DNA of 64,000 bases, taken from positions 372,001 through 436,000 of the forward strand of contig NZ_CP018812.1 of the NCBI RefSeq assembly GCF_001922345.1, read 5' to 3'. A program made the translations under genes and the position numbers. Below the pieces are notes generated by a model. It was given only the letters and a program-made list of their open reading frames with translations. It was not told where the DNA came from and ran no database searches. Positions 8,106 to 60,457 of this stretch are shown here, in pieces (within the stretch, counting starts at the first letter, position 1; each line of letters begins with the position of its first letter). This DNA is from Paraburkholderia sp. SOS3. Lineage in GTDB: Bacteria > Pseudomonadota > Gammaproteobacteria > Burkholderiales > Burkholderiaceae.

Positions 8106-8227
8106 AACCTCTGCAAAACCAGACGAGCATCGTTCTTGCTTGATCTGCTCATCGCAATCGCTCGCCATGACCGTCGTTAAGCGTCAGGCGCGCAGGGCCG
8201 CTCCGTCGCGAGCGGCAGGGAGCCGCG

Positions 8228-9253
8228 ATGACAAAGATCGGCATGTCCGCACGCGTTGCAATTTTCGCCGTGCTTTTTGCAGTGCTTGCCGCATGCGGCG
8301 GCGGCGGCAGCAATAGCGCAAGCGGAAGCAATGCCGCCGGCGGTCCGGCGGGCGGCGTCCAGTTGCAGGTCGTTTCGTTTGGCGACAGCCTGTCCGACGT
8401 CGGCACGTTCGCCCCGCTAGCGAGCCCGGTAGGCGGCGGCCGCTTCACCACGAACCCCGGTCAGGTGTGGGCGCAAAACGTCGCACAGTATTACGGCGAC
8501 ACATTGAACGCGGCGTTCACGATCAGCGCCAGCCACCAGTTGAGTCCTCATGGCGGCTTTGGCTATGCCGAGGGCGGCGCAACCGTTGCAACGCCGGCCA
8601 ACCTCAACAACTTCCTGATTGATGTGATCGGCGATGTGGAGATGCCGGTCAATCAACAGGTGTCGAGCTATCTGTCCGCGCATGGCAGCTTCAATGGCGG
8701 GCAGCTAGTGCTCGTTTGGGCCGGCGCAAACGACGTGCTTCGTGCGGGTGCGCTGCCCGCAGCGGCGCCCATCGTGCAAACGGCCGCGACGACGCTCGCG
8801 CAAATCGTCGCGCAGATCGTGCAGAACGGCGCCACGCATGTGGTCGTAGTCAATTTGCCGAATATCGGCCTGTCGCCGAAAGGACTCGCCGCTGCCGACG
8901 GCGGCGCGACGCTCACGCAACTGTCGCAGTTGTTCAACGATACGTTGAACGCCGCATTGCAGGCCAATGGACTGCAAGGCAAAGTGATCGAAGTCGACTC
9001 CTTTGGCTGGGTGAATCAGCTCGTTGCCAACTTCCAGGCCAATGGCTTCGCGGTATCGAACACCGGCCAGGCGTGCGACCCTTCGAGAACACCCAACAAC
9101 ACGGCACTGCTTTGCTCGCCGGCAACCTATACGACGCCCAACGCGGACCAGACGTATATGTTTGCCGATGACCTCCATCCGACCACACGCATGCACGCCC
9201 TTTTTGCACAATTCGTGGAGCAGCAGATTGCAAAGAGCGGCCTTGGACGATAG
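8228..9253 (+). CDS. SGNH/GDSL-family lipolytic lipoprotein
   Basis: Predicted outer-envelope esterase or lipase of 341 residues. A lipobox LAAC places lipidation at C23, followed by a Gly/Ser-rich linker. The catalytic serine is S54 in FGDSLSDVGT; the block III motif GAND and the C-terminal DDLHPT supply the Asn and the Asp/His of the SGNH site. GGGAG precedes the ATG. It is alone between the catabolic operon and the convergent DUF1479 gene. Natural substrate unknown. Confidence 0.9.
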   Translation: MTKIGMSARVAIFAVLFAVLAACGGGGSNSASGSNAAGGPAGGVQLQVVSFGDSLSDVGTFAPLASPVGGGRFTTNPGQVWAQNVAQYYGDTLNAAFTISASHQLSPHGGFGYAEGGATVATPANLNNFLIDVIGDVEMPVNQQVSSYLSAHGSFNGGQLVLVWAGANDVLRAGALPAAAPIVQTAATTLAQIVAQIVQNGATHVVVVNLPNIGLSPKGLAAADGGATLTQLSQLFNDTLNAALQANGLQGKVIEVDSFGWVNQLVANFQANGFAVSNTGQACDPSRTPNNTALLCSPATYTTPNADQTYMFADDLHPTTRMHALFAQFVEQQIAKSGLGR

Positions 9254-48606: not shown

Positions 48607-51042
48607 CTACTCGCTCGCGTCGGTGAATAAAGCCTTGCGAATGATCGCGTGCACGCCCCAATTACCATCCACCACTTGCGTCACACCGAAGTCCACTGCC
48701 ACCGACATCAGCGAAATCGCTTCATCTTCGCTGAGCCCCTTGGTGGTCATCAGGAAACGCCGCGTCTTGATGAAGGCATCGCGCATAGCCTGATCGAGCG
48801 TCGACTTCTCATAGACTTTACTTTGCGCATGAGAGCCGAACTCGGTCAGGTAGTTCGGATGACTGAATCCATGCAATACCCAATCATCAGCTGTTTCGAC
48901 CAACGGATACGTCAGATCGGCAAACGGCTTTCCAGCAAGCGTCGCCTTCTTGTGCAGGATCAACTGGAAATCGCCAGTCAACGAGCACTCGATCGCGGTA
49001 CCGCACAGCTCCGAATCTCCTTGCGATGCATGCGGATCGCCGACCGACAGCAGCGCCCCTGCGACGCCCACGGTCAGATAAACGCTGGCGCCCCGCGCGA
49101 CGCGCCAGTTGTCGAGATTGCCGCCGAATGCGGACGGCGGGATCGAATCGATCAACCCGTCCTGCTGCGGTGCGACCGCGATCAGTCCAAAGTGCGGACG
49201 GACCGGAATTCGCACGTTCTTCAGTACGTCGTGATTTTCGACAACCGTCGAGTGATCGACGGGTACGCCCGGATAATCGATGGTCGGATGCACGACGCCG
49301 AACGGATCGCGCTGCGGCGTCCACCGGTAGTTGTAAACGGCGCGTGCAAACGACGAACCGTGCTCCGGCAGGTCGGCATCGAGTTCATAGATCGTGATGA
49401 CTTCGCGCGGCTTGGGCTCCGTCAGCAATTCCCGATAGTGAAAGCCCCACCATGCCGCGGCATTGCTGCCGAATGCCCGGCCCGCGAAATGCGGGTTGGC
49501 GCAGCGACGCGGATGCACATCGAGAATCTTCACTTCGAGCACGTCGCCGGGCTCCGCGCCGCGCACGGCGACCGGCCCGGTGCAGATATGCACGCCGAAC
49601 CCTTCGCCTGCGCCACGTCCATAGATCGACGCATCGATCGGTCCGGCACCGCGCCGGTTCACGTTCTTGCGCTCCGCCGTCCAATGAAACACGCTTTCGG
49701 CACCGGGGTCACCGGCTATCATGCGCGCCCAGTCGTCGGATGCATGCTGCGTGAGCGTTTCGATTGTCACGGTGTCGCCGCTGTCGACCTCGAGCACCGC
49801 CTTCAGATCATGCGAAAAGTAGCCCCAGTGCACGGTATTGGCAGTCGCGCGCAACAGATGGTGGCGCGGCCTCGGCAACCGGTGGCTGCCGCCCTTGCTG
49901 TTCGCGACGGCGCGCGCCTTCGCCGGCGCCTGGGCGACCATCGTATCGGAGCCATCGTCGACTTCTCCTGGCGTTACTGTCAAAGATGCCGTACCGTGAG
50001 CAAGAGCGACCGGCTGCACATGCGCGAGCAGCGACTCGGCATTGAGCGGCACACCGCGCGACATGCGCCGAACGAGATGACGCGCGAGTTCGAGACCGGC
50101 TCCGTGCCGGAATGCACGCGGCGACATCTGATACTGTTCGCGAAACGCGCGGCTGAAATGCGCAGGATCGTTGAAACCCCAACGAAAGCAGATGTCCGAG
50201 ATCGACATCTTTTCGTAGAGCGGGTCGACAAGTTCCGCACGGCAGCGTTCGAGCCGTCGCTGCCGCAAATAAGCGGAAAAGTTCTGGTTAACCGTCTCGA
50301 ACAGTTTCTGCAGATAACGCGACGAGACACGCTGCTCCTGCGCAATCGCGGCCAGGCTGATCGTTGGATCGCCCAGGCGTTCATCGATCGTGCGGCATAC
50401 GCGCGCGAAGATCGCCGCTTGCGAGGCGGTCAGGCCATTGATGCTCGCTTCCCGCTGACGTCCGGCGAGGCACGCAACGAGAAACTCCGCAAGGGCGAGT
50501 TCGAGGGGCCGCAATTCGCTTACCGACAGCGTATCGACGCTCTCCGCAATCGACGCGAGAAATCCCGAAAACACATGTCCGATACCCGCATCGGCGGCAA
50601 TCTTGCCGGCCCTTATCGATGACGAAGCGAAAAGGCGCGCGCCGACTGCCGCGCGCGGGACGCGCACGACGAACACGCGAAAGTCCGTCGCAAACACGAG
50701 CGACGCCGGCTCGCGCGGCGGAAGATAAACGATGTCATGTACCGCGACCGGTTCGCGCCGGCCATCAACGACAAGCGTCGCGTCGCCGTCGACGGCAAGC
50801 ACGATCTGCAGGCTGTCGGACGCCGATGACTTCAATTCGAGCGTTTGCGCAACCGATGTCAGCACGCTGAGCGCGAAGCCTCCGATCGATGTCCGCGATT
50901 CAATGATGCCGTGCAGCGCACGAGCCGCTTGCGGCGTGCCGGTAGCGCTGCTGCGCAGACCGATACCGTCGAGCGCGTCGCGCCATGCGCGCAACCGCCC
51001 GGCTTGCGGGTAGGACTCGGTCGTGAAGCGCAGCGGTTCCAA
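48607..51042 (-). CDS. Fusion of AraC-family regulator and acetamidase/formamidase
   Basis: One uninterrupted reading frame of about 811 residues. Residues 1-200 are an AraC_binding_2-type sensor (LQIVLAVDGDATLVVDG, HDIVYLPPREPASLVFA). Residues 206-312 are a complete double helix-turn-helix (ISLAAIAQEQRVSSRYLQKL, ISDICFRWGFNDPAHFSRAF). A linker of about 80 residues follows. From 393 to the end is a full acetamidase/formamidase (NTVHWGYFSHDL, AGDPGAESVFHW, VDFGVTQVVDGNWGVHA) that aligns end to end with the separate amidase at 51375-52616. I favour a TTG start (51040-51042), where GGAG lies seven bases upstream and the product begins MEPLRFTTESYP; an ATG at 51093 and frame to 51228 exist. Probably a substrate-sensing regulator or a trigger enzyme; function is inference. 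Confidence 0.88.
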   Translation of the reverse strand: MEPLRFTTESYPQAGRLRAWRDALDGIGLRSSATGTPQAARALHGIIESRTSIGGFALSVLTSVAQTLELKSSASDSLQIVLAVDGDATLVVDGRREPVAVHDIVYLPPREPASLVFATDFRVFVVRVPRAAVGARLFASSSIRAGKIAADAGIGHVFSGFLASIAESVDTLSVSELRPLELALAEFLVACLAGRQREASINGLTASQAAIFARVCRTIDERLGDPTISLAAIAQEQRVSSRYLQKLFETVNQNFSAYLRQRRLERCRAELVDPLYEKMSISDICFRWGFNDPAHFSRAFREQYQMSPRAFRHGAGLELARHLVRRMSRGVPLNAESLLAHVQPVALAHGTASLTVTPGEVDDGSDTMVAQAPAKARAVANSKGGSHRLPRPRHHLLRATANTVHWGYFSHDLKAVLEVDSGDTVTIETLTQHASDDWARMIAGDPGAESVFHWTAERKNVNRRGAGPIDASIYGRGAGEGFGVHICTGPVAVRGAEPGDVLEVKILDVHPRRCANPHFAGRAFGSNAAAWWGFHYRELLTEPKPREVITIYELDADLPEHGSSFARAVYNYRWTPQRDPFGVVHPTIDYPGVPVDHSTVVENHDVLKNVRIPVRPHFGLIAVAPQQDGLIDSIPPSAFGGNLDNWRVARGASVYLTVGVAGALLSVGDPHASQGDSELCGTAIECSLTGDFQLILHKKATLAGKPFADLTYPLVETADDWVLHGFSHPNYLTEFGSHAQSKVYEKSTLDQAMRDAFIKTRRFLMTTKGLSEDEAISLMSVAVDFGVTQVVDGNWGVHAIIRKALFTDASE

Positions 51043-51374: not shown

Positions 51375-52616
51375 TCATCCCGCTGCAAACACATTCTTTC
51401 GAATCGACCCGTGCACGCCCCAGTTGCCGTCGACCACTTGCGTGACACCGAAGTCGGCCGCGACCGACATCAGCGCAATCGCTTCGTCTTCGCTCAGCCG
51501 GTGCACGGTCATCAGAAAGCGGCGCAGCTTGCGAAACGCGTCGCGCATCGCCTTATCGAGGCTCGCGTGCTGGGCGACTTCGGTTTGCGCGTTCGGGCCG
51601 AGTTCCGCGAGGTAATTCGCGAACGTGAAGCCGTATACGGACCACAATTCGTCGGTTTCAAGCATCGGATGCGTGAGTCCTTCCAGCGTTGTACCGGCCA
51701 GATCGCTTTTTCTGTGCAGCACGAATTCGAAGTCGCCGGTCAGCGAGCATTCGATCGCCGTGCCGCCCAGTTCGCTGTCGCCCTGCGCCGCATGCGGATC
51801 GCCGACCGAAAAATACGCGCCGTCGACCGCAACCGGGTAGAACATCTTCGCGCCCTTGCCGACGCGCCAGTCGTCGATATTGCCGCCCGTGTAGCCCGGC
51901 GGAATCGAACTGACAAAGTCGGACTCGGCGGGCGCGAGTCCCATCGTGCCGAAGTGCAGGCGTGCCGGCACTTTCACGTTCGGCAGAATATGTTCGCGCT
52001 TGCGCACGAGCGTGTGATCGACCTTGACGCCCGGATAATCGATCATCGCATGCACGACGCCGTCGGGGTCCGTCTGCGGCGTCCATACGTAGTTATAAAC
52101 CGCCCGCGCATACGGTTCGCCGGCGGTGTCGAGCTCGAATATCGTCACGACTTCGCGCGGCTTCGGTTCTTCGATCAGATCGCGGTAGTGAAAGCCCCAC
52201 GACGCCGCGACATTCGAGCCGAAGCAGCGGCCCGCATAGCACGCGCTGCAGCTCGGCCGCGGCCGGACATCGAGAATCCGCACTTCGAGCACGTCGCCTG
52301 CCTGAGCGCCTTCGATGGCGACCGGCCCTGTCAGCAGATGCACGCCGACGCCCTCGCCGGACCCGAGCTTGAACGGCCCTTCGGTCGGGCCCGCGCCGCG
52401 TCGCGGCACGGCCTTGTGTTCGCGCGTCCAGTGAAACACGCTTTCCGCGCCCGGGTCGCCGGCAATCATGCGCTCGTGGTCGTCGTTCGCGTGATGCGTC
52501 AGTGTTTCGATCGTCACGCGGTCGCCGGAGCGCACAGTCAGCGCCGGCGCGACCTGCTTGCTGAAGTAACCCCAATGAACCGTTTCCGGCGATACGGCAA
52601 GAGTGTGATGCTTCAT
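51375..52616 (-). CDS. fmdA: Acetamidase/formamidase family protein
   Basis: Hydrolase of 413 residues that releases ammonia from formamide, acetamide or related amides. Signature regions are TVHWGYFSKQVAPAL, IAGDPGAESVFHWT, RAVYNYVWTPQTDP, IDYPGVKVDH, SVGDPHAAQGDSELGG and FGVTQVVDGNWGVHGS. The start overlaps the ABC permease-ATPase stop by four bases (ATGA), so the two are translationally coupled. Its closest visible relative is the C-terminal half of the next gene. The true substrate is probably what the linked ABC transporter brings in, perhaps an amino-acid-like amide. Confidence 0.92.
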   Translation of the reverse strand: MKHHTLAVSPETVHWGYFSKQVAPALTVRSGDRVTIETLTHHANDDHERMIAGDPGAESVFHWTREHKAVPRRGAGPTEGPFKLGSGEGVGVHLLTGPVAIEGAQAGDVLEVRILDVRPRPSCSACYAGRCFGSNVAASWGFHYRDLIEEPKPREVVTIFELDTAGEPYARAVYNYVWTPQTDPDGVVHAMIDYPGVKVDHTLVRKREHILPNVKVPARLHFGTMGLAPAESDFVSSIPPGYTGGNIDDWRVGKGAKMFYPVAVDGAYFSVGDPHAAQGDSELGGTAIECSLTGDFEFVLHRKSDLAGTTLEGLTHPMLETDELWSVYGFTFANYLAELGPNAQTEVAQHASLDKAMRDAFRKLRRFLMTVHRLSEDEAIALMSVAADFGVTQVVDGNWGVHGSIRKNVFAAG

Positions 52617-54310
52617 ATCGTTTCGGACCTCGTGGCCATTTCAAACCCTGAATCGGCGCCCATCACGTTGAGGAATCTCGCCGTCAATGGATGCTGTGGA
52701 TGCCTGAGCAGTTCGTGCGCCGGTCCTTCCTCGACGACGTTGCCGCCGCTCATGAAGACGACGCGATCGGCGACCTGATCGGCAAAGCGCAACTGATGGG
52801 TGGAGATAATCATCGTCAGCCCTTCTTCGCGCGCGAGCCGCTGAATCACGTCGAGCACTTCGCCGACGAGCTCCGGATCGAGCGCGGACGTCGGCTCGTC
52901 GAGCAGCAGCACGCGCGGACTCGGCGCCAATGCACGCGCAATCGCGACTCGCTGCTGCTGGCCGCCCGACAGGTGGCGCGGCAACGCATCGGCGCGATGG
53001 CTCAAGCCGACGCGTTCAAGCAGTTCGTCTGCGCGGCGGTTCGCATCGGCGGGTTGCATGCGATGCACCCAGCGCAATGGACCGGCGATGTTTTCGCGCG
53101 CGCTCAAATGGCTGAACAGGTTGAACTGCTGGAACACCATTCCGACGCCGACGCTCGCGCGCTCGTTGGCGATATCGCGCGCGCGCATCGGCCGGCCGTC
53201 TTCGCGATAGCCGAGCCTGCGCCCGCCCACGTGAATCTGCCCCGCGTCCCATTGCTCGAGATGGTTGATGCAACGAAGCAGCGTACTCTTGCCCGAGCCG
53301 CTCGGGCCAAGCAGTGCGATCACCTCGCCCGCTTGCACGGTCAGATCGAAACGGTCGAGCACGGTCTGCTTGCCGTAGCGTTTATGCAGCCCCGTCACGC
53401 GCACGGCCGCGGGACGCTGCGCGAGTTGCGCGTAACGCTTTGCGCGCTCGGCCAGCGACGGAGCCGCTGCGCGCGATGGCGCATGCGCAGGCAGCGCAGC
53501 GGCCATTGAAGCTGCGTGCGCCGAACCGGACGCCGCAGATTGCAGCGCTGCCGCCTCTGCTTCTCCGCCGCTGGGCATGGCATCCTGCGGCACCGCCGCA
53601 TCGTCGGCGTTTGCGCCGCGCCGCCGCCACGGCAGAAGCCGCGCAAACCGTTCCGACGGAGCGCGATCGAGATCGAGCGCTGCTTCGGCGAATAGCTGAA
53701 TCAGCGCAATCGCGCCGGTCAGCAGCAGATACATCAAACCGGACGCAAAGAAGATCGAAAAGAAATCGAACGTCGACGATGCGAGCTGCGTGCTGCGCAG
53801 CGTCAGTTCGTCGACGGCGATCACCGACGCAAGCGACGAGTTCTTCAATGCGCTGACCGACTCGTTGCCGAGCGCCGGCACGATCGTGCGGATGGCTTGC
53901 GGCGAGATCACGCGGCGCATCAGCACGGCCGGCGTCATACCGAGTGCCTGTCCCGCCAGCAGTTGTCCGCGATCGACGCCGAGCACGCCCGCGCGCAGAA
54001 TCTCCGCGATAAACGGCCCTTCGTTCGCCGCGAGCGCGAGGCCCGCGGCGCCTAACGCACTCAGCTTGAGTCCGATATGAGGCAGCGCATCGTACGCGAA
54101 TACGAGTTGCAGGATCAGCGGGGTGCCGCGGAAGATCACCGTATAACCGCGTGCGATCACCGCGAGCGGGCCGACCTTGCTCAACTGCATCGCGGCGAGC
54201 ACGAGGCCGACGAGCAATCCGCCGGCGAGTCCGAGCACGGTCACGGCGATCGTAAAGCCGATTCCGCTTAGCAGATACGGCAAGCTCAAATAGTGCAGAA
54301 ACAGATCCAT
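52613..54310 (-). CDS. Amino-acid-type ABC transporter: permease and ATPase fused in one chain
   Basis: A 565-residue protein. The first 220 residues are a HisM/GlnP-like permease (GIGFTIAVTVLGLAGGLLVG, FRGTPLILQLVFAY, and the EAA loop GQALGMTPAVLMRRVISPQA). A low-complexity Ala/Pro linker of about 80 residues leads to a GlnQ-like ATPase with GPSGSGKST, LSGGQQQR and VLLLDEPTSALD. Fusion of the two roles in one chain is unusual; dimerisation of this chain would give the full transporter. It lies between the binding protein (13 bases upstream) and the amidase (overlap 4 bases). Confidence 0.92.
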   Translation of the reverse strand: MDLFLHYLSLPYLLSGIGFTIAVTVLGLAGGLLVGLVLAAMQLSKVGPLAVIARGYTVIFRGTPLILQLVFAYDALPHIGLKLSALGAAGLALAANEGPFIAEILRAGVLGVDRGQLLAGQALGMTPAVLMRRVISPQAIRTIVPALGNESVSALKNSSLASVIAVDELTLRSTQLASSTFDFFSIFFASGLMYLLLTGAIALIQLFAEAALDLDRAPSERFARLLPWRRRGANADDAAVPQDAMPSGGEAEAAALQSAASGSAHAASMAAALPAHAPSRAAAPSLAERAKRYAQLAQRPAAVRVTGLHKRYGKQTVLDRFDLTVQAGEVIALLGPSGSGKSTLLRCINHLEQWDAGQIHVGGRRLGYREDGRPMRARDIANERASVGVGMVFQQFNLFSHLSARENIAGPLRWVHRMQPADANRRADELLERVGLSHRADALPRHLSGGQQQRVAIARALAPSPRVLLLDEPTSALDPELVGEVLDVIQRLAREEGLTMIISTHQLRFADQVADRVVFMSGGNVVEEGPAHELLRHPQHPLTARFLNVMGADSGFEMATRSETI

Positions 54311-54323
54311 CAGACAGTCACGC

Positions 54324-55259
54324 TCAGTTCGATACGATCAGCTTCGGCGCTTCGAGATTTTCCGACGGCAGCGACCACTTTTTCAGCAGTTGCGCCTGCG
54401 CGCCCGACTTCTGCAGTGCGACGAGCGCCGCCATCACCGCCGCGCGAAACTCCGGCTTGTCCTTCGGTACGCCGATTCCGACCGAATAGGGCAGCGTGAC
54501 GGCCGTCGCCTTTTCGAGCTTGTCCGGATAGGCCTTCACAGCCTGGTCGACGGTGTTCACGTCGTTGATGTAGGTGTCCGCGCGGCCCGCGAGAATGGCC
54601 TGAATACAGTTCGCATTGTTGTCGTAGAGCTGAACCGTCGCTTCGGGCTTGCCCGCCGCCTTGCAGGCCGGCGCGAGGTTGTTGATCAGCGGCACTTCGA
54701 CGTAACCGGTGTTTTCCGCGGCCGTCGTGCCGCACATCGTCGCGTTGATGCCGGTGATCTTCTTCGGATTACCCTTCGCGACGAGCACGCCGTCAAACAC
54801 CTTCGAATACGTAATGAAGTCCGCCGCTTTCGCGCGTTCCTCGGTTGCGTAGATGTCCGAGATCACGATGTCGGCCTGGCCGCTTTGCAGCGTCGTCAGC
54901 AACGCGGCGAACGTCACGGGCTTATAGGCCATTTTGAAGCCGAGACAATCGCCGATCGCTTCGCCGAGGTCGATATCGAAGCCGATATATTTGCTCGGGT
55001 CGTTCGGATCGAGCGCTTCGTAGCCCGGCGTATGCGGGTTGATCGCATTGGTCAGCGTCTTGCCCTTCAATTGCGGGTACTTCGCCTGCAGCGCCTTGCA
55101 CTCCGCGGGGGTCGCGGTGCCTGCGGCCATTGCGGGGCGAGTGCCCACTATCAGTAGCGCCAGCAGACAGAGCGCGCCGGCGACAAGTTCGCGCCAGCGT
55201 CCGCGAGCGGCCGCCGAGCGCTGCCGGCCGTGCGCGTAGTCGATAAGTTCTGTATGCAT
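54324..55259 (-). CDS. Amino-acid-type ABC transporter substrate-binding protein
   Basis: Periplasmic receptor of 311 residues, SBP_bac_3 family. An extended N-terminus with a hydrophobic segment (ALCLLALLIVGTRPAMAA) precedes the mature domain, where YIGFDIDLGEAIGDCLGF, VTFAALLTTLQSGQADIVIS and YSVGIGVPKDKPEFR are typical. The ATG at 55257-55259 has GGAG seven bases upstream; the frame is open to 55484 without support. It is the first gene of the operon with the permease-ATPase fusion and the amidase, so its ligand is likely the amidase substrate. Confidence 0.9.
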   Translation of the reverse strand: MHTELIDYAHGRQRSAAARGRWRELVAGALCLLALLIVGTRPAMAAGTATPAECKALQAKYPQLKGKTLTNAINPHTPGYEALDPNDPSKYIGFDIDLGEAIGDCLGFKMAYKPVTFAALLTTLQSGQADIVISDIYATEERAKAADFITYSKVFDGVLVAKGNPKKITGINATMCGTTAAENTGYVEVPLINNLAPACKAAGKPEATVQLYDNNANCIQAILAGRADTYINDVNTVDQAVKAYPDKLEKATAVTLPYSVGIGVPKDKPEFRAAVMAALVALQKSGAQAQLLKKWSLPSENLEAPKLIVSN

Positions 55260-55564
55260 CGGGAGACTCCGTGAGCGGCAGATGTCAACGGCACACACCA
55301 TGTACGCCTCATTGCATCGCACAAGCCCAAGCGTAGGCAGCCGAAATTCCGCGGACTTGTCTCGACGCGCACAAATACCTGGATTGAGGCGAAGAAGCGG
55401 GGCCGGACCGTCCGGGGGGCAAGCCGGCGACGACGCGGCCATCGCGATGAGTCGAATGAGCAGTTTGCTGATCCGCGATGCCATTCACGCGGCACCTGGC
55501 GAGTTCTACAGTTCACCCATGCCGTACGAAAACGGTAACCCCTAACTCCTTCTGGAGACGCATC
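55260..55564. promoter_or_regulatory. Divergent promoter region of the amide operon
   Basis: About 305 bases between the binding-protein start and a small divergent membrane-protein gene. It should hold the amide-operon promoter and any binding sites of the AraC-type domain. I could not identify a repeated operator by eye. Confidence 0.45.
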
Positions 55565-59257: not shown

Positions 59258-59377
59258 GCCGCTTTTGCTTCAGCCGCTTTTGCTTCAGCCGCTTTTGCTT
59301 CAGCCGCTTTTGCTTCAGCCGCTTTTGCTTCAGCCGCTTTTGCTTCAGCCGCTTTTGCTTCAGCCGCTTTTGCTTCA
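59258..59377. repeat. Eight perfect tandem copies of a 15-bp unit
   Basis: The unit GCCGCTTTTGCTTCA (TGAAGCAAAAGCGGC on the other strand) is repeated eight times without a mismatch. The last unit contains the stop codon of the response-regulator gene (TGA at 59375-59377), and the repeat runs into its 3' side. Each unit supplies a stop in the same frame. It sits between two convergent genes and could vary in copy number. Confidence 0.95.
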
Positions 59378-60052
59378 GCTCTTCGCGGCGGCGTCGTTCA
59401 ACATCACGGTCCAGCCGAGTCCGCGCACATTGCGTATGACGGATAAGCCAAACTTCTTGCGCACCGAGTGGATCAGCACGTCCACCGCATTGCTTTCCAC
59501 TTCTTTTCCCCATCCGTACAAGCGGTCTTCGAGCTGCTCGCGCGACAGAATAGTGCCGGGCCGCTCGAGAAACGCGAGCATCAGCGCAAATTCGCGCGCG
59601 GACAGCACCGATGTCGCACCATTGACGCACAACGTGCGCTTGTCGAGATCGAGGCTCAGATTTTCGTCGCCGAGACGCGACACCGCATAGCCAGCCTTGC
59701 GTCTGATCACCGCGCGGATTCGTGCGAGCAGTTCCGGTACCTGGAACGGCTTGAGCATGTAGTCGTCGGCGCCGAGATCGAGCCCCTGCACACGTGCGTC
59801 CAGTTCGTCGCGCGCGGTCAGGATCAGCACTGGAACCGGGTTGCCCTTCGAGCGGCACGTTTTCAGCAGTTCAATGCCGCTCATGCCCGGCAAACCGAGA
59901 TCGAGCAGCACAACCGTGTATTCGGCCGCTTCTATCGCCGCGCAGCCGGCGATGCCGTCGCGCACCCAGTCGACGCTGTAATCGGCGTCTTTTAACGCAC
60001 GCAGCAGGCTTTGTCCGATCTGCAGGTCGTCTTCAATCAGTAGCACTCGCAT
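59375..60052 (-). CDS. OmpR/PhoB-family response regulator (QseB-like)
   Basis: A 225-residue DNA-binding regulator. The receiver domain has the acidic pair in LLIEDD, the phosphoacceptor Asp in VVLLDLGLPGMSG, the Thr in LILTARD and the Lys in DDYMLKPF. The C-terminal winged helix ends SVRKKFGLSVIRNVRGLGWT. Its partner kinase is at 60458-61771, but a terminator lies between, so it probably has its own promoter. Its last codons (GCG AAG AGC TGA) resemble the adjoining 15-bp repeat unit. Confidence 0.95.
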   Translation of the reverse strand: MRVLLIEDDLQIGQSLLRALKDADYSVDWVRDGIAGCAAIEAAEYTVVLLDLGLPGMSGIELLKTCRSKGNPVPVLILTARDELDARVQGLDLGADDYMLKPFQVPELLARIRAVIRRKAGYAVSRLGDENLSLDLDKRTLCVNGATSVLSAREFALMLAFLERPGTILSREQLEDRLYGWGKEVESNAVDVLIHSVRKKFGLSVIRNVRGLGWTVMLNDAAAKS

Positions 60053-60249: not shown

Positions 60250-60283
60250 TAATAAAAAAGGCCGGCCGCAAGAGCGGCCGGCC
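60250..60283 (-). terminator. Rho-independent terminator between sensor kinase and response regulator genes
   Basis: GGCCGGCCGC and its complement (60260-60269, 60274-60283) form a ten-base-pair stem with an AAGA loop, followed on the minus strand by a run of six T. It lies about 175 bases after the kinase stop and 200 before the regulator start. The rest of the 60053-60457 gap shows no gene I can support. Confidence 0.8.
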
Positions 60284-60457
60284 GAAGGATTCTGGCCTAT
60301 ACCGATCGCCGAGCCAGAATCAGAGGGGCCGTGGATCCGGATCAGCGGGGAGCGTGACGGTTCGTGGGCCTGTCTTCGGGAGACGTTTCAATCGTACGTA
60401 CGAAGAATGAGCCTTGAATGAGCGAAAAACAGCAGGCGGTCGAGCCGCAGTCGGCCG

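Follow-up and report, generated by a model that had tools for sequence, protein, structure and literature searches.

A 64,000-nucleotide stretch of the genome of Paraburkholderia sp. SOS3 (hereafter, the window) carries on its minus strand, at positions 51042–48607, a single open reading frame of 811 amino acids, in which the sensor and DNA-binding domains of an AraC-type regulator are joined to a complete FmdA/AmdA amidase. The original prediction had proposed this join without giving the strand, and the frame bears it out. The encoded protein has an estimated size of roughly 88 kDa. The frame is open from 51228 to 48607, which amounts to 873 amino acids before a start is assigned; its likely start is the TTG at 51042, which is preceded by GGAG. 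GGAG and TTG occur at the equivalent place in 34 of the 37 Burkholderiaceae loci examined (the window locus counted among them), and the upper coordinate of the original prediction, 51042, is therefore right. The gene and its parts are as follows:

48607..51042, minus strand: AraC–amidase fusion gene, 811 amino acids, TTG start behind GGAG
50074..51042, minus strand: AraC half, residues 1–323, N-terminal AraC_binding_2 domain and AraC helix-turn-helix (HTH), from Pfam and structural matches
49867..50073, minus strand: linker, residues 324–392, with RGxP at its start (R329–P332)
48610..49866, minus strand: amidase half, residues 393–811, from Pfam, BLASTP, and structural matches
49747..49749, minus strand: codon of Gln432, which is His in stand-alone relatives (THHA to TQHA)

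In the numbering of the 873-amino-acid frame, AraC_binding_2 spans residues 98–252, HTH_18 spans residues 296–375, and the best stretch of FmdA_AmdA covers residues 695–854. The HTH scores 75.4 bits against PF12833 (cut-off 33.6) and 50.6 bits against PF00165 (cut-off 26.6), the N-terminal sensor/dimerisation domain 46.4 bits against PF14525 (cut-off 27), and the amidase 99.1 bits against PF03069 (FmdA/AmdA; gathering cut-off 27). Structural matches of the AraC half (Foldseek) include CuxR, ToxT, AraC, and MarA. Its best NCBIfam match, at 120.1 bits, is FeaR, an AraC-family protein of aromatic amine catabolism in Escherichia coli, but the score lies below the 199-bit equivalog cut-off, and the FeaR model, with its 303 positions, covers no enzyme domain. 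The amidase half aligns from start to end with the stand-alone amidase encoded beside it (51375–52616), as had been claimed: residues 455–868 (same numbering) match residues 2–410 of the neighbour, with 254 of 414 positions identical (61 per cent; BLASTP). Both fall below the 500-bit cut-off of the formamidase FmdA equivalog model NF045496 (fusion, 59.7 bits; neighbour, 62.6 bits). Compared with another FmdA/AmdA (PF03069) protein, 3b9t of Methylobacillus flagellatus, which is named in the PDB as a twin-arginine signal protein, the fusion has an AraC regulator in the place of the signal peptide and Gln instead of His at residue 432.

That the fusion is one gene is strongly supported by its recurrence in a single frame in other genomes, together with the matching divergence of the halves and the lack of a conserved internal start in the linkers (see below). 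We scanned genome contigs, kept the best 80 of 133 candidates, and fetched 79 loci from named genomes; loci with weaker or split matches may therefore be missing. Both halves are adjacent in 76 of the 79 loci (the amidase is alone in L082, L085, and L086), and a single stop-free frame crosses both halves in all 76, as well as in both copies that the window's own genome carries (78/78). The claim that no frame break interrupts the linker thus holds for the window and for every locus with both halves, and the fusion is not an artefact. The gap between the halves, measured as the distance separating the BLAST matches, is 46–92 residues. Three of the 78 are incomplete, two at a contig end (L054 and L083) and one because the end of the amidase is out of frame (L038, Burkholderia sp. 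E7m39); in the last, the frame changes for the terminal part of the amidase (8136–8525), through either a real break or an assembly error.

Evenly drawn samples, which may share species with the 79 loci, gave a full-length single-frame fusion in 19 of 150 genomes of the family (20 proteins) and in 8 of 398 genomes of the phylum (9 proteins), with two of the proteins in each case found in the window's own genome (G000). Together, these are 27 distinct full-length matches (two of them from the window's own genome), all in single frames, and the sole stop counted (G240) is a terminal one. The halves were not seen as neighbouring separate genes in these samples at an E-value of 1e-80, where at most six (family) or two (phylum) candidates per genome were scored, so that a separate AraC half could be missed. 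Amidase-only matches occurred in eight phylum-sample genomes (G364, G348, G244, G500, G177, G292, G299, and G341), and no AraC half was found near the amidase in the two of them that were fetched (L099 and L100).

Carriers of the fusion span alpha-, beta-, and gammaproteobacteria. The contig scan found it in Paraburkholderia, Caballeronia, Variovorax, Pseudacidovorax, Oxalicibacterium, Parvibaculum, Pseudomonas, Halopseudomonas, Methylophaga, and Aliiglaciecola; plasmids of Neorhizobium and Rhizobium are further carriers. Divergence of the AraC half matches that of the amidase half (across the 78 fusions, Mantel r = 0.957, compared to 0.241 in the highest of 500 permutations), and both halves have therefore been inherited as a unit. 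The window's own genome holds a second fusion (L091:7091–9484; G000:C2:1081099–1083621), which is 71 per cent identical to that of the window and is accompanied by another ATP-binding cassette (ABC) transporter, a polysaccharide-deacetylase-like gene, and an alpha/beta hydrolase gene; this locus contains neither a second amidase nor a clear operator. An amidase-half fragment of this kind, possibly a remnant, occupies a 256-amino-acid open frame in another genome (L090, from G123).

Because they are annotated in RefSeq and GenBank, the sequences are already in databases. In the two RefSeq plasmid regions that we opened, the fusion is one coding sequence named 'acetamidase/formamidase family protein' (WP_095423056.1 and WP_111218715.1), and one GenBank record labels it 'AraC family transcriptional regulator' (AYD03708.1). 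Among the 17 plasmid records with a match, the former name is used in seven and the latter in one, whereas five have no feature there and four are unannotated. Current annotation therefore mostly hides the fusion, since the records mostly name the amidase only.

Three genomes (G052, G015, and G491) carry an unfused AraC relative (36–43 per cent identical) whose sequence stops shortly past the HTH. Immediately upstream of it, in the same orientation, lies a separate gene for a short amidase, which shares 39–40 per cent identity with the fused one. The original prediction would have been undermined by two separate genes in related genomes; unfused AraC genes do exist there, but their partner is a different, shorter amidase. 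In the AraC tree (FastTree), the three sequences lie inside the fused set (support of 0.91 and 0.95; their exact placement has a support of 0.02), which suggests that these AraC genes lost the amidase half and do not represent the ancestral state, although the outgroups are distant.

The linker is probably disordered, given its model confidence (predicted local distance difference test [pLDDT] of about 32 over residues 320–388). The original prediction had asked whether its approximately 80 residues are conserved: as a whole they are poorly conserved, but the RGxP start is kept, lying within the first 35 linker residues in 77 of the 78 loci. We considered whether this motif is an AT-hook, but the RGRP form occurs in only 18 of these 77 linkers (78 examined), and a role in minor-groove binding is therefore speculation. 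By eye, a short DTxVA-like patch is visible in many Burkholderiaceae linkers.

In a tree of the amidases from the fetched loci, a single clade with a weak support of 0.54 unites the fused halves; its sister clade (0.98) comprises 17 amidases, mostly with a twin-arginine translocation (Tat)-type signal. The next branches out are the cytoplasmic type, as found beside the window fusion, and then the short type. Rows L038_8136, L090_5904, L043_3, L055_3, and L003_1495 and any row shorter than 250 amino acids were left out of the residue comparison that follows; one alignment used 39 sequences, without L042, which has a stop upstream of its assumed start. The 85 fused rows referred to below count one place twice (L002 = L091).

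The fused amidase halves keep the GGNxD and GDPHxxQGDxE motifs. We compared them at the columns where 88 stand-alone rows are at least 95 per cent conserved. For Asp, Glu, Asn, Gln, and His, the majority residue is unchanged in the fused rows at every such column but one: Gln takes the place of the first THHA His in 78 of 85. Each of the 84 stand-alone rows belonging to the three near types has this His (four distant rows differ). Two Asp columns are weakened (trimmed position 168, kept in 59/85; position 405, in 74/85). Three further residues, in window numbering, stand beside conserved motifs. Leu656 is found in all 85 fused rows and Phe639 in 79 of them, both in none of the 84 near-type rows, while Trp531, present in 81/85, also occurs in 8 of the 17 Tat-clade rows. 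Gln432, Trp531, Phe639, and Leu656 may line the pocket. Across 11 Burkholderiaceae loci (55 pairs each), the ratio of nonsynonymous to synonymous change (dN/pS) is lowest in the amidase half (0.095), close to the value of the stand-alone amidase (0.110), and higher in the AraC half (0.362). The amidase half is therefore kept as carefully as the stand-alone enzyme, and we rejected the idea that it is decaying. The N-terminal domain of the AraC half shows lower conservation than either the HTH or the amidase.

The genes that precede the fusion on the minus strand, in this order, and the candidate control elements before them are as follows:

55355..55383, minus strand: 29-bp operator-like motif (motif matrix)
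55330..55335, minus strand: -10-like hexamer TACGCT, 19 bp beyond the operator-like motif, of a putative promoter
54324..55259, minus strand: ABC substrate-binding protein, with its ATG at 55259 judged from relatives (comparison with relatives, NCBIfam)
52613..54310, minus strand: single ABC transporter protein with permease and ATPase parts, of the polar amino acid type (by NCBIfam matches that fall short of the equivalog cut-offs)
51375..52616, minus strand: stand-alone amidase, 413 amino acids, without signal peptide, the 61-per-cent-identical neighbour

A second amidase is present in 77 of the 85 fused loci, and the fused one is therefore rarely the sole enzyme. Some fused loci also hold RidA, hydantoinase, LigB, Rieske, or TauD genes, or a deacetylase (with a match to PuuE allantoinase below the cut-off). 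In four loci (L094, L048, L051, and L062), genes for Rieske, TauD, LigB, FMN reductase, and short amidase proteins surround the AraC gene, which suggests that these clusters may encode an aromatic amide pathway.

The operator-like motif consists of a CAAG-like repeat, TTTGTGCG, and ACAAG, and it precedes the transporter/amidase operon inside the region (55260–55564) that the original prediction had singled out for binding. Aligning 48 upstream regions with one another gave too noisy a result, and 18 of them were instead subjected to a Gibbs search, which found a 20-bp core near -115 (log-likelihood of 369, compared to at most 182 in four shuffles; the control used four mononucleotide shuffles per width). 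After extension to 29 bp, the matrix scores at least 15 in 47 of 66 held-out fused loci, whereas with 20 column-permuted matrices the number of such loci averages 0.8 and never exceeds 6; in a shuffle control of 60 loci on one strand, only 7 scores above 8 were seen in 575653 positions (maximum of 14.0). Held-out matches include loci of Parvibaculum, Pseudomonas, Oxalobacteraceae, and Methylophaga. Where it was called, the next gene after the site often encodes a substrate-binding protein or an amidase, and in Parvibaculum TauD or FMN reductase. Among the unfused clusters, that of G491 has two sites (16.9 and 15.7), and those of G052 and G015 have no site above 8. A candidate operator beside the second fusion copy of the window's genome was rejected (best score of 9.7). 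When the operator core was searched in the window's own genome with one mismatch allowed, it was found in 16 places (7 forward, 9 reverse), compared to 12 and 13 for the reversed control; because only the window site is exact, we do not claim a wider regulon.

Since this site lies at 55355–55383, control by the fusion of the operon led by 55260–55564 is supported, and the end of the motif 19 bp before the -10-like box would correspond to the position of a class II activator. A putative second promoter element, resembling GTGCGATGCAACA, lies at 55310–55325 on the minus strand of the window, about 66 bp before the start of the substrate-binding protein gene, and in relatives; 18 regions were searched for it, with one site per region forced.

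The sequences themselves show a conserved fusion, a motif that resembles an operator, and an amidase half that is under constraint and bears signature substitutions. From these we infer an AraC activator of its own amide uptake and hydrolysis operon, whose signal most likely comes from the amidase half, a reading that we hold with somewhat better than even confidence. The AraC half would bind the 29-bp operator beside the operon promoter, and, when amide is present, the genes for the substrate-binding protein, ABC permease/ATPase, amidase, and the fusion itself would be turned on. The amidase pocket, an altered descendant of that of a real amidase, would bind the amide imported by the operon and perhaps hydrolyse it slowly, so that induction would end once the amide is gone. 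The amidase half is the best candidate for binding the signal because a dedicated amidase nearly always stands beside the fusion, because its constraint is enzyme-like while residues near otherwise constant motifs are altered, and because the N-terminal AraC domain is the less conserved part.

Several observations weigh against this interpretation. The 18 Gibbs regions were hand-chosen from the 48, with one site per region forced, and the exact TTGT(G/T)CG core occurs in only 9 of the other 30 regions, in none of these before the more distant transporter. No site of at least 15 was found in 19 of the 66 held-out loci, including the second copy of the window's genome, and part of the held-out set is closely related to training loci. 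The His is retained in seven of the 85 fused amidases (L032, L059, L061, L062, L063, L065, and L083). The real sensor may be the N-terminal domain that the AraC half itself possesses, and the AraC relatives in G015, G052, and G491 lack the amidase half, so such a protein can work alone. The binding, activity, and activation ascribed to the regulator are all predicted from sequence.

The main rival, possible but clearly less probable, is a bifunctional protein, in which the amidase is active and the AraC regulator, of conventional type, senses the amide through its own N-terminal domain. The fusion would then couple the expression of the two and draw down the inducer, with no signal coming from the amidase pocket. 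The sequences fit both mechanisms of the original prediction, in which one polypeptide senses and hydrolyses the amide or the amidase half has turned into the sensor. The enzyme-like constraint and the retained motifs allow catalysis by the amidase half, and the AraC N-terminal domain that this model needs is present. The His-to-Gln change, the other substitutions beside conserved motifs, and the second amidase in 77/85 loci favour sensing instead, and conservation of the putative sensor domain is below that of both the HTH and the amidase. It is improbable that the amidase half, without catalysis or any role for a ligand, is a domain that serves only in structure or dimerisation; the replacement by Gln, in 78/85, of a His constant in near stand-alone relatives would fit such a domain, but the kept motifs and a dN/pS equal to that of the enzyme do not. 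Equally improbable is that the amidase is also made alone, through an internal start or linker cleavage. The linker looks disordered, and in the window an in-frame ATG stands 37 codons ahead of the HWGY motif, with AGGAG ahead of an out-of-frame ATG nearby; however, we found no conserved internal start in the linkers, as a Shine-Dalgarno-like 4-mer precedes an in-frame start in only 15 of 77, at scattered places, and in the window there is none. Chance loss of a stop, a frameshift, or a sequencing or assembly error was rejected, as the halves share one frame in 78/78 loci and form a single coding sequence in each of the three plasmid records opened.

The activator reading has parallels in known systems. 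AraC regulators normally sense through their small N-terminal domain. PutA, BirA, NadR, and Ada combine an enzyme and a DNA-binding regulator in one chain, and the enzyme site can act as the sensor, but their enzyme folds are different, and only Ada among them has an AraC-type DNA-binding part. In MocR/GabR regulators, an enzyme-derived sensor domain follows the DNA-binding domain, as we propose for the fusion, although these pair a GntR-type HTH with an aminotransferase fold and not AraC with an amidase. More broadly, and tentatively (we rate this slightly below an even chance), the fusions may be widespread one-component regulators in which a whole amidase, nearest to Tat-exported amidases, came to stand behind an AraC activator in the place of the signal peptide and became amide-sensing, possibly self-extinguishing, through the His-to-Gln and other substitutions near conserved motifs. 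With a conserved AraC family that carries a whole hydrolase, this very large class of regulators would gain a sensor derived from an enzyme. Such a family would also illustrate clearly how an enzyme is drawn into regulation while a working paralogue remains alongside, and would offer an amide-responsive switch with a predicted operator.

Elsewhere in the window, positions 60253–60331 on the minus strand match the Rfam family ncS54, a Burkholderia small RNA, at 47.1 bits. At about 59265–59380, a tandem repeat encodes LKQKR- or LLLQP-type repeats at the end of a response-regulator gene region, according to the list of open reading frames.
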